Part shown: in pieces, positions 4,124-44,203 of the stretch
How positions within the stretch are numbered: position 1 is the first letter of the stretch
How the letters are laid out: the number at the start of each line of letters is the position of its first letter
Source: Persephonella sp. KM09-Lau-8
Lineage (GTDB): Bacteria > Aquificota > Aquificia > Aquificales > Hydrogenothermaceae
Assembly (NCBI RefSeq): GCF_000703085.1
Contig: NZ_JNLL01000001.1
Span: forward strand, 1,054,001-1,118,000
DNA length: 64,000 nt
Reading direction: 5' to 3'
Translations under genes and position numbers: made by a program
Notes under the pieces: model-generated
The model's database searches: none
Seen by the model: the letters and a program-made list of their open reading frames with translations, nothing else
What the model was told of the DNA's origin: nothing

Positions 4124-4660
4124 ATGATTGAGTTTATTCAGGGAAATATTGTTGAAAAAAATAAAGATTATATTGTTGTGGAAAAAGGGGGAGTTGGATT
4201 TAAGATTTATGTGCCATATGAAATTGAGGATGGAAAGGTATATACAAAATTAGTAGTTAGAGAAGATGGATTTTTTCTATATGGGTTCAAAAACAGAGAA
4301 GATAGGGATTTGTTTGAACAGCTTACGGGTATAACAGGAATAGGTGTAAAGCATGCTTTTTCTATTTTAAAAAGATTTACCGGTGGAGAGGTTATACAGA
4401 TTATAGATGAAGGGGATGTTCAGGCTTTAATGGATGTGCCAGGAATAGGCAAAAAAACCGCCCAGAGAATTATTTTTGAGCTTAAAGGAAAATTACAGTT
4501 TTTTGAAAATGAGTTATTAGAGGATATTGTAAATGCTCTGTTATCCCTTGGTTTTGAAAAAAAGGATGCAGTATGGGCTGCCAGAGAAGCCCTGAAAGAA
4601 ACCAAAGAGCTTGAAATTGCAATAAAAAAAGCCCTTCAAAAACTGTCTGAAAAAGGATAG
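4124..4660 (+). CDS. ruvA: Holliday junction branch migration protein RuvA
   Basis: A 178-residue DNA-binding subunit that forms a tetramer on Holliday junctions and loads the RuvB helicase. The N-terminal OB-fold domain (1-62) is followed by two helix-hairpin-helix motifs, TGITGIGVKHAFSIL and DVPGIGKKTAQRII, and a short C-terminal domain III that would contact RuvB. The linker between domains II and III is short, giving a protein smaller than the 203-residue E. coli form. GGGGAG precedes the ATG. ruvB and ruvC are not in the window. Confidence 0.95.
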   Translation: MIEFIQGNIVEKNKDYIVVEKGGVGFKIYVPYEIEDGKVYTKLVVREDGFFLYGFKNREDRDLFEQLTGITGIGVKHAFSILKRFTGGEVIQIIDEGDVQALMDVPGIGKKTAQRIIFELKGKLQFFENELLEDIVNALLSLGFEKKDAVWAAREALKETKELEIAIKKALQKLSEKG

Positions 4661-41249: not shown

Positions 41250-41303
41250 TCCTCAACCTCCGTTTATTTGGAAAAATTATATAACAATCCACAGGTTGCA
41301 GGA

Positions 41304-41326
41304 ATGTTGCAACACTGTTGCAACAT
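41304..41326. promoter_or_regulatory. Perfect 23-bp palindrome, candidate enhancer for the DUF2173 operon
   Basis: ATGTTGCAACA at 41304-41314 is mirrored exactly by its complement at 41316-41326 around one base. A further TGCAACA half-site lies at 41337-41343. The palindrome is about 75-95 bp upstream of the sigma-54 core, the usual place for an activator site. Confidence 0.7.
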
Positions 41327-41397
41327 TTAATCAAAATGCAACACATGAAAATTTATCTTTTTTATTTAAGTTATTGATTTTTCTGCAAATTCCTCTT

Positions 41398-41412
41398 TGG
41401 CACAGTTGTTGT
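41398..41412 (+). promoter_or_regulatory. Sigma-54 promoter of the DUF2173 operon
   Basis: TGGCAC, five bases, TTGT differs from the consensus TGGCAC-N5-TTGC at one base and keeps the ten-base GG to GC spacing. The predicted start near 41424 leaves a leader of about 29 bases with an AGGAGG site before the ATG at 41453. Confidence 0.75.
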
Positions 41413-41452
41413 TCTTAATAAGATACACCATTAAAACAGGAGGTTTTTAATC

Positions 41453-41779
41453 ATGGCAACACTAAGAGAGCTTATGCAATTACCAGGAGCTGTTGCAGCA
41501 GGTATTTATGACGACCACGGAAATCTTGTTGCATATGCTGGAGATATTTCAGAAAAAGCTGCCGAGATTGCAGCACTGATGGCATCAGCGAACAAAGCAG
41601 TAGCCAATATGCAGGCAAAAGGATGGACAGAGTATACAGGAAAAGAAGGATTTTTCCCTGTTCAGGGTTTTGCTGTTGCAGCAGGAAAATATGCAGCCTG
41701 TATAGCAGGCAATGTTGGAGTTTTTGTGGAACTGGACAAAGCAGATTTTGACAAAATCTGGGAAACAATTATGCCATAA
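41453..41779 (+). CDS. DUF2173 family protein, first copy
   Basis: A 108-residue soluble protein with no signal peptide. It aligns along its full length with the next gene (about 43% identity by hand count), sharing a GDIS turn and a C-terminal AGNVGVFV strand preceded by a conserved Cys. The strand-helix-strand layout (AAGIYDDHGNLVAYAG, then an Ala-rich helix, then QGFAVAAGKYAACIAGNVGVFV) suggests a Roadblock/LC7-like fold. Function is not established. It is the first gene after the sigma-54 promoter and has a strong AGGAGG site, so high expression is likely. Confidence 0.75.
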   Translation: MATLRELMQLPGAVAAGIYDDHGNLVAYAGDISEKAAEIAALMASANKAVANMQAKGWTEYTGKEGFFPVQGFAVAAGKYAACIAGNVGVFVELDKADFDKIWETIMP

Positions 41780-41801: not shown

Positions 41802-42128
41802 ATGGCAGACTTAAAAAAATTATTAGGAATAAAAGGTGTTTTTGCTGCAGGACAGTTCAATGATGATGGGACACTTGCAGCATTTGAAGGGGATATTTCT
41901 GAAGAAGAAGCAGCCATGGCAGCTGAAATGTGTGCTGCTAATAATGCAATGGCTAAGATGCAAACAGATGGATACACAGCATTTTCAGGACAGGAATGGA
42001 CACCACTTAAAGGATGGGCACTTGCAGGACCAAAATATTCTGTATGTGTTGCAGGTAATGTAGGTGTTTTCGTAAAAAATGATGAAGTCTCATTTAATGA
42101 AGTATTTCAAGCATTACTTTCCCAATAA
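41802..42128 (+). CDS. DUF2173 family protein, second copy
   Basis: The 108-residue paralogue of the preceding gene, 22 bases downstream with its own AAGGAGG site. It keeps the GDISEEEA turn, the Ala-rich helix (with Cys44, absent from copy one) and the conserved Cys before AGNVGVFV. It is followed by a terminator, so these two genes form the most expressed part of the operon. Two copies with equal length suggest a heterodimer, as for Roadblock-type proteins, but this is inference. Confidence 0.75.
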   Translation: MADLKKLLGIKGVFAAGQFNDDGTLAAFEGDISEEEAAMAAEMCAANNAMAKMQTDGYTAFSGQEWTPLKGWALAGPKYSVCVAGNVGVFVKNDEVSFNEVFQALLSQ

Positions 42129-42137
42129 AAAATTAAT

Positions 42138-42158
42138 GGGGCTTTTTAGCCCCTTTTT
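42138..42158 (+). terminator. Terminator after the DUF2173 pair
   Basis: GGGGCT (42138-42143) and AGCCCC (42148-42153) form a stem with a TTTT loop, followed by five T residues. The SCP-2 gene starts 15 bases later, so its transcription would depend on read-through. Confidence 0.82.
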
Positions 42159-42172
42159 AAAGGAGTTTTAAG

Positions 42173-42553
42173 ATGCCAAAATTTTTATCAGAAGAATGGA
42201 TAAAGGCCTACGCTGAGGAATGGAACAAGAACAAAAAGCTTAAAGATGGTCTAAAAAAGTTTAATGCAACAATCAAATACTACATAGAAGGTTCAGACCA
42301 ACCTCCTGTATATGTAAAGGTAGAAAAAGGGGAGGTAATTGAATCAGGACTTGCACCAGACATGAAATATGATTTTGAGATGTGGGCAACCCCTGAAGAC
42401 TGGAAAATACTTGCAACCGGAGAGATGGGACCTAAAGCAGCAATGCTCACCAAAAAGCTGAAATTTAAAGGTTCAATGATAACAGCAATGAAATATATGG
42501 GTCCATTTGAAGAAAGCTTAAGAATGATGAGCAAAATCCCCACAGAGTGGTAA
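42173..42553 (+). CDS. SCP-2 sterol-transfer family protein
   Basis: A 126-residue protein of the SCP-2 fold: FLSEEWIKAYAEEWNKN, then VYVKVEKGEVIESGLAPDMKYDFEMWATPEDWKILATGEMGPKAAMLTKKLKFKGSMITAMKYM. The SCP-2 cavity binds lipids or other hydrophobic molecules. Bacteria of this group lack sterols, so a different hydrophobic ligand is expected. AAAGGAG precedes the ATG. It lies between the DUF2173 pair and the sigma-54 activator gene, behind a terminator. Confidence 0.8.
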   Translation: MPKFLSEEWIKAYAEEWNKNKKLKDGLKKFNATIKYYIEGSDQPPVYVKVEKGEVIESGLAPDMKYDFEMWATPEDWKILATGEMGPKAAMLTKKLKFKGSMITAMKYMGPFEESLRMMSKIPTEW

Positions 42554-42616: not shown

Positions 42617-44203
42617 ATGGACTTGCGTATTCTCGACAGTGTAACGGAGGGGATTATCTTCGTTACCAAAGAAAGAAAAATTGGGTATATCAACAAAGTT
42701 GCCCAGAAAGTTGTCAATCGTAAAGTAGGGGAGGATTGTTACGGACTTTTTTCAATCTGTGAGAATAATTGCCCTATGGAAAAAGACCTGAAAAAAGTTG
42801 ATGCCTTTGATGTTAAGCTTTCCTGCTGTAATGAAAAAACCGTATGTCATAGTATAACTCCTGTTTTCGACAATGGTGAGTTTATCGGGCTTTTAGAGGA
42901 GTTTAAGGATTCCTCCAAAATGACAGATTATATAAAAGAGTTAAAGAAACAGAAAGAATTCACAGAAGTAATTCTGGACTCAATTGTAGATGCAATAGTT
43001 GTAATAAATAACAACGGGGAGATAATCCATTACAATGAAGTTGCACGACAGATTTTATGTAGAGAAATTTCTGATATAAAAGGATTTAATATTGAAAATT
43101 TGATTGGAATCTCACTGAAAAATCTACCACCTGAAGGAGAAAGGGAAGACATCCATATAGAAACACCTGCTTATGGCAGAATAAAAGTATCCTTAATGAT
43201 AACCTCCCTGAAAGAAGGAGAAGGCAAAGTTATATCCTTTTACATGCTCCCAGAATGTATGATAAATCAGGAAGTTAAAGGAAGAATCATTTCAAAAAAT
43301 CCAGAATTTGTATCTGTCATAGAAATGGCAAAAACGGTGGCAGATACAACTGCCACCATCCTTATAGAAGGGGAAACAGGCACAGGTAAAAGTGTTCTTG
43401 CAAAATATATACACACTCTTTCTTCAAGGAGAGATAAACCATTTATCAAAATAAACTGTGCTGCAATCCCTGAAAACCTACTTGAAAGTGAACTTTTTGG
43501 ATATATGAAGGGAGCGTTTACTGGTGCTAATAAAGATAAACCCGGAAAAATAGAACTTGCAGAAGGTGGAACACTATTTTTAGATGAGATAGGAGATATG
43601 CCGATTTACCTACAATCTAAACTCCTGCAGCTTTTGCAGGATAAAGAATTTGAAAGGCTGGGAGATATAAAAACAAGAAAGGCAAATATAAGGGTGATTG
43701 CGGCAACAAACAAAGATTTACGGGAGCTAATTGAAAAAGGAGAGTTTAGAGAGGATTTATATTACAGATTAAAAGTAATATCCCTTAAAATTCCGCCGCT
43801 GCGGGAAAGAAAAGAGGATATTCCTGCACTGGTAAATTATTTTATTGATAAATACTCAGAAATTTATAGAAGAACCATAAAAGGTATTTCCCCAAAAGCA
43901 ATGAAAATGCTCCTTGAGTATGACTATCCGGGAAATATCAGAGAACTGGAGAATATGATAGAAAGGGCAGTTATAGTTTGTAATAGCAAGACCATCACAG
44001 AAAAAGAACTGCCTGAGGATTTAATCGCAAAGAAACCTTTCCGAAAGTCGGAAAAAATGATAAAAGAAGAGCCATCAGAAAAAGAAAAAATACGTCAGGT
44101 TTTAATTTCAACCAATGGTAATAAATCCTTAGCAGCCAAAATTCTGGGAATCCATAGGACAACCCTCTGGAGAAAAATAAAAGAGTATGGATTACAGATA
44201 TAA
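42617..44203 (+). CDS. Sigma-54-dependent transcriptional activator with N-terminal PAS sensor
   Basis: A 528-residue NtrC-family activator. Two PAS-like domains (about 1-95 and 110-215) precede an AAA+ domain: Walker A GETGTGKS, the sigma-54-contacting GAFTGA, Walker B GGTLFLDEIGD, and a C-terminal Fis-type helix-turn-helix (NKSLAAKILGIHRTTLWRKIKEYGL). No receiver domain is present, so it senses a signal directly. The first PAS-like domain has Cys41, 48, 52, 70, 71 and 77, which could bind metal or respond to redox. No clear ribosome site precedes the ATG, suggesting low expression. It is the natural regulator of the sigma-54 promoter upstream. Confidence 0.9.
   Translation: MDLRILDSVTEGIIFVTKERKIGYINKVAQKVVNRKVGEDCYGLFSICENNCPMEKDLKKVDAFDVKLSCCNEKTVCHSITPVFDNGEFIGLLEEFKDSSKMTDYIKELKKQKEFTEVILDSIVDAIVVINNNGEIIHYNEVARQILCREISDIKGFNIENLIGISLKNLPPEGEREDIHIETPAYGRIKVSLMITSLKEGEGKVISFYMLPECMINQEVKGRIISKNPEFVSVIEMAKTVADTTATILIEGETGTGKSVLAKYIHTLSSRRDKPFIKINCAAIPENLLESELFGYMKGAFTGANKDKPGKIELAEGGTLFLDEIGDMPIYLQSKLLQLLQDKEFERLGDIKTRKANIRVIAATNKDLRELIEKGEFREDLYYRLKVISLKIPPLRERKEDIPALVNYFIDKYSEIYRRTIKGISPKAMKMLLEYDYPGNIRELENMIERAVIVCNSKTITEKELPEDLIAKKPFRKSEKMIKEEPSEKEKIRQVLISTNGNKSLAAKILGIHRTTLWRKIKEYGLQI

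Follow-up and report, generated by a model that had tools for sequence, protein, structure and literature searches.

An array of TGCAACA half-sites at positions 41294–41343 is very probably the enhancer of the sigma-54 core promoter at 41398–41413, and would be docked by the activator that the same operon encodes at 42617–44203. All three lie in the window, the whole 64-kb stretch of DNA analyzed here, which comes from a genome of 2.07 Mb; a near-identical operon is found in a Persephonella (Aquificota) MAG. The array occupies the space between a divergent trpS gene and an operon on the forward strand, whose first and second predicted target genes encode DUF2173 proteins of 108 aa each, DUF2173a (41453–41779; PF09941, E-value 2.5e-34) and DUF2173b (41802–42128; PF09941, E-value 2.6e-40). 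These are followed by a gene for a 126-aa SCP2-type protein of sterol/lipid carrier fold (42173–42553; PF02036, E-value 1.6e-16) and, last in the operon and also on the forward strand, by the gene for the sigma-54 activator (enhancer-binding protein).

The original prediction, made from the window sequence, started from a palindrome around one central base, ATGTTGCAACA-C-TGTTGCAACAT, which is present at 41304–41326 and is even one pair longer than described. The complete feature is a perfect 25-bp inverted repeat, AATGTTGCAACACTGTTGCAACATT, at 41303–41327 (unstranded, with 12-bp arms and a 1-bp center), and it is the longest perfect inverted repeat with a gap of 5 or less in the window. It contains half-sites B (41305–41314) and C (41316–41325), both reading TGTTGCAACA. 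The additional TGCAACA that had been noticed further on is half-site E (41337–41343, forward strand). A fourth half-site, overlooked earlier, is A (GGTTGCA, 41294–41300, forward strand), which has one mismatch to TGTTGCA, lies 11 bp upstream of B, and also occurs in the two closest genomes (L032 and L034). The GC centers of these half-sites fall at 41298, 41309, 41320, and 41338, giving steps of 11, 11, and 18 bp; the D slot, which in most orthologs follows C by 7–8 bp, is degenerate in the window (TTAATC). The inverted repeat sits 71 bp upstream of the core promoter, whose TGGCAC-N5-TTGT was predicted about 70 bp downstream of the palindrome and starts at 41398, 72 bp past position 41326. In shuffled windows, perfect inverted repeats with a 1-bp center and arms of 11 bp or more numbered 0.06 per window, which extrapolates to about two per 2-Mb genome, so the palindrome by itself is not decisive. 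Triplets of exact half-sites within 40 bp were encountered in none of 100 shuffles of the window. The description of the site as too perfect for chance thus holds for the half-site array and fails for the inverted repeat alone.

The array is conserved upstream of orthologous target operons, as an enhancer should be. The DUF2173a gene was detected in 24 of 61 relatives and in 47 of 136 Aquificota genomes, and we aligned DUF2173-DUF2173-SCP2(-activator) operons from 23 Aquificota genomes representing 11 genera of hot-spring and vent bacteria. In 23/23, the operon is preceded by a −24/−12 element and by several half-sites that match TGCAACA fully or at all but one position, and this bears out, for the array and its sigma-54 promoter, the expectation that the palindrome would recur upstream of orthologous operons. 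The window promoter, TGGCACAGTTGTTGTT, fits the −24/−12 consensus (TGGCAC at −24) except for TTGT rather than TTGC at −12; the −12 element is TTGC/TGC in 19 of the 23 orthologs, and TGGCA is found at −24 in 22 of them, with the element placed 51–61 bp ahead of the gene's start codon. The remaining ortholog, L044, has a degraded promoter (TAGCAT...TTGA) in front of a decaying operon with frameshifted SCP2 and activator genes. A sigma-70 scan gave no excess over shuffles. Across the 23 orthologs, half-site centers lie between 114 and 49 bp before the −24 element, within the tens to few hundred bp before −24/−12 at which sigma-54 enhancers lie. Against the enhancer model stand the variable spacing of the array and, in the window, the degenerate D slot and the TTGT at −12.

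A slot alignment of 20 arrays revealed the arrangement B-(11 or 12)-C-(7 or 8)-D. B and C are recognizable in all 20, and several Hydrogenothermaceae-type genomes (family f1) continue after another 11 bp with E. The promoter-facing CA of TGCAACA never varies at B or C and is retained in most D slots, although slots were assigned by eye, which favors the promoter-facing side. The commonest spacing between half-sites is 11 bp, found in nine genera. The palindromic unit TGTTGCAACA is shared by Persephonella and many Aquificaceae, is absent from g7, g8, and g10, and is reduced to TGATGCAACA in g13 and g16. Judged from these alignments, what all lineages share is the half-site TGCAACA at steps of about 11 bp (and 7–8 bp), and the palindrome is lineage-specific.

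How the array would be read within the enhancer model is less clear-cut. There is an appreciable chance, though short of even, that the palindrome is the functional unit, each inverted repeat being a dimer site as for NtrC/NifA, and that the direct-repeat appearance is secondary. Consistent with this, in HRTT lineages, so called from the activator's recognition helix, the left-hand G of TGTTGCAACA is preserved at 32/32 B and C slot positions, a count that leaves out g9 and g5, which were not slotted. Furthermore, the C–D pair of Aquificaceae reads TGT-N11-ACA, within the TGT-N10-12-ACA of the dimer-bound inverted sites of NifA/FhlA/PrdR-type upstream activating sequences (UAS; PMC6615313), which the Aquificota arrays also resemble in their TGT and ACA outer bases and in placing several sites ahead of a sigma-54 promoter. 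Unlike those UAS, the window has no intact TGT-N10-12-ACA but GC-centered TGCAACA repeats at 11 bp; the TGT-to-ACA distances inside its array are N4 and N15, and the sequence that would have to pair with C to give TGT-N11/12-ACA is degenerate. The NifA-type resemblance is therefore lineage-limited. Orientation also argues against the palindrome as the unit, since the exact half-sites of the 23 orthologs comprise 38 that face only the promoter and 5 that face only away, in addition to 21 that are palindromic, and g7, g8, g10, g13, and g16 all lack an exact palindromic unit. We slightly favor head-to-tail half-sites, each contacted by one domain, or a mixture of these with dimer sites.

The recognition helix of the activator, conserved among its orthologs, offers a further clue. 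Genera g7, g8, and g10 form a single clade in the activator tree (100/99 support), their helix reads [N/D]RVT instead of HRTT, and their arrays are without TGTTGCAACA. Because this co-change of helix and site is confined to one clade, it counts as a single event. The rule linking helix to site is not strict either, since g9 and g5 keep HRTT yet have only one palindromic unit and irregular spacing that departs from 11 bp. We propose only tentatively a more specific scenario, in which the change from HRTT to [N/D]RVT would have replaced palindromic TGTTGCAACA units in the enhancer by TGCAACA repeats arranged head to tail, which tethered DNA-binding domains would read as monomers in an 11-8-11 bp register. 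Such a switch would control this operon alone, might serve sulfur chemistry, and would have its feedback tuned by an operon-internal terminator.

The predicted ligand of the array has the architecture of an NtrC/NifA-superfamily activator: a PAS-like region, a second PAS (the PAS match is weak), an AAA+ domain (PF00158, E-value 1.5e-72) with GAFTGA in the translation, and a C-terminal Fis-type HTH_8 (PF02954, E-value 3.7e-14, residues 487–524). It could not be assigned to a curated NCBIfam subfamily; PrdR is the best match, with 409.7 bits where the cutoff is 795, and the scores for NifA, NorR, NtrC, and the others likewise fall below cutoff. That this protein is the activator acting on the array, as originally proposed, is supported by its distribution. 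A full-length activator ortholog and DUF2173 occur together in 14 of 41 genomes, and the other 27 lack both. We consider it quite unlikely that the array is a sigma-54 enhancer bound by another AAA+ activator. The genome does hold several paralogs with a Fis-type HTH (seven matches to the activator query), but such paralogs are present in 41/41 genomes, including those without the array, whereas only orthologs of the operon activator track operon and array, and their recognition helix and the array are altered in one and the same clade.

It is very unlikely that the repeats are the target of an unrelated regulator, be it a repressor, a nucleoid protein, or one acting on trpS, and lie near a sigma-54 promoter incidentally. 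Inverted repeats are typical of many repressors, and the site does lie between divergent genes. However, the upstream neighbor is trpS in the window, a phosphoribosyltransferase-like ORF in L042/L062, and gatB in G050, and the array stays with DUF2173 throughout; since the neighbors differ between genomes, the array belongs to the DUF2173 operon rather than to trpS. In every ortholog, moreover, tens of bp separate it from the −24/−12 element downstream, and the two do not overlap. Common ancestry by itself could explain why activator, operon, and array stay together, but the turnover of the surrounding intergenic sequence argues against this, as does G031, in which the activator ortholog is about 400 kb from the operon and the array remains at the DUF2173 operon. 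A chance palindrome without function is vanishingly improbable, for although about two comparable inverted repeats are expected per genome by extrapolation, the array is conserved in every aligned orthologous operon and unique in its genome.

The array is tied nearly exclusively to this operon. In a search of the window's genome by pattern only, exact TGCAACA-N4-TGCAACA occurs nowhere else in the 2.07 Mb. Across the phylum the pattern is found in 29 of 136 genomes (its reversed control has 0 matches across the 136), and 27 exact arrays, in 26 genomes, lie 118–226 bp before a DUF2173 start. Among the leftover genomes, G109 carries array and promoter ahead of a DUF2173 frame that is only about eleven codons long; in G040 (L062 1796–2657) the array abuts a broken activator gene and DUF2173 and SCP2 are gone, so that the locus is an operon relic; and in G050 the contig ends inside the array. 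The 27 arrays and the informative leftovers together mark the array as the hallmark of a single operon. A second, divergent DUF2173-DUF2173(-SCP2) cluster (L083 3075–4173; G083 C16/C64) was observed adjoining the main one or apart from it, and in G083 this duplicate comes with a TGCAACA array of its own. Decaying copies of the operon were seen in L075 (G042), L076 (G051), and L179 (G109), with frameshifted SCP2/activator genes, an internally deleted SCP2 gene and broken activator gene, and a truncated DUF2173 gene, respectively.

The original prediction had suggested that the same half-site, sought elsewhere in the genome, would define a regulon. We found no further targets in the window's genome, and hence no regulon to find; at the pattern stringency used, the array appears to be a single-operon switch. 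Four matches to TTGCA-N7-TGCAA (C1 134589, 320380, 740182, and 1010789), inspected with 2.5–3 kb of context, were rejected as targets, as they lie in or beside ORFs and have, within that context, no match to the −24/−12 pattern used. Also rejected as an enhancer was C2 82510–82615, where TGTAACA iterons precede an actin-like plasmid-segregation gene. This run (L162, approximately 4510–4620), with 11-bp spacing and directly upstream of an ALP_N, MreB-like_C gene, is a candidate parC-like centromere that resembles the enhancer array. No published UAS with a TGCAACA motif was found in the open-access literature searched.

Within the operon, an intrinsic-terminator-like hairpin, GGGGCTTTTTAGCCCC, followed by a T run (42138–42153, forward strand) separates the DUF2173 pair from the SCP2 and activator genes, and a GC-rich hairpin followed by a T run was recovered at this point in most orthologs folded. 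The hairpin likely causes partial termination inside the operon, and its position means that the activator level would stay low relative to the DUF2173 products. In some Aquificaceae (L172, L175), an extra small ORF with a CMACH motif, judged by eye to be cytochrome c-like, lies between DUF2173b and SCP2.

Activation at sigma-54 promoters proceeds by signal-dependent ring assembly, DNA looping, and ATP hydrolysis that opens the promoter complex. For the Aquificota operon, we infer binding, oligomer state, looping, signal, and expression from what the genomes establish directly: the array, the promoter, their conservation, the near-exclusive tie to the operon, and co-occurrence with the activator. 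Several activator DNA-binding domains would dock on TGCAACA half-sites one helical turn (11 bp) apart, so that the array concentrates the activator upstream of the promoter and holds it about 80–130 bp upstream of the expected start site. A signal, probably received through the cysteine-bearing N-terminal PAS-like domain, would lead to assembly of the AAA+ ring and to DNA looping, after which the GAFTGA loops and ATP hydrolysis would open the sigma-54 polymerase complex. Promoter opening would turn on DUF2173a-DUF2173b-SCP2-activator with positive feedback, and the hairpin terminator after the DUF2173 pair probably cuts SCP2 and activator output.

Several known systems share elements of this design. 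The Pseudomonas putida activator CbrB recognizes several 6-bp subsites (TGTTAC/GTAACA) on one helix face, with monomer binding to each subsite inferred by the authors (PMC6296734). It is thus a sigma-54 activator with several short, separate sites, as is predicted for the Aquificota array, but the CbrB subsites are 20–25 bp apart in mixed F-R-R orientation and CbrB binds many loci, whereas the TGCAACA half-sites are mostly 11 and 7–8 bp apart, mostly in one direction, and tied to one operon. As described in the same source, the adjacent enhancer sites of NorR are thought to raise the local activator concentration and to seed the hexamer (PMC6296734). Several adjacent upstream sites are common to both systems, but NorR has three dimer sites and a GAF sensor domain, and the Aquificota system has three to five half-sites of lineage-dependent symmetry and a PAS-like domain with cysteines. 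FisR is likewise a local sigma-54 activator with a cysteine-bearing regulatory domain, and in Cupriavidus these cysteines have a part in sensing (PMC7315123); its targets are the sulfide-oxidation genes sqr/pdo rather than a DUF2173 operon.

The N-terminus of the activator (42617–42946) has cysteines at approximately residues 41, 48, 52, and 77, in the pattern FSIC-x2/3-CP plus a later V/L-C. All four are invariant in the Aquificota orthologs aligned and not in more distant Deltaproteobacteria and Stahlbacteria relatives, and they form a candidate metal, Fe-S, or thiol sensor. A full-text search of open-access literature gave a single paper that names DUF2173. In two Sulfolobaceae, a DUF2173 gene ranked with those most strongly induced by sulfur (PMC11323534). 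The displaced activator of G031 (L071 3427–6532) follows genes for a SorA-like sulfite dehydrogenase and a cytochrome-like protein. For these two reasons, a sulfur or redox signal is a reasonable guess, offered only as such.

The proposed switch is conventional in kind within sigma-54 biology (overview in PMC7175178) and new in identity. On the strength of comparative sequence analysis, a cis-regulatory code and a dedicated activator can be assigned to the DUF2173/DUF2173/SCP2 operon, a function-unassigned operon that recurs across Aquificota. Its orthologous enhancers provide a natural series for how hexameric sigma-54 activators read DNA, one in which a change in the recognition helix is tied to a change in the symmetry of the site.
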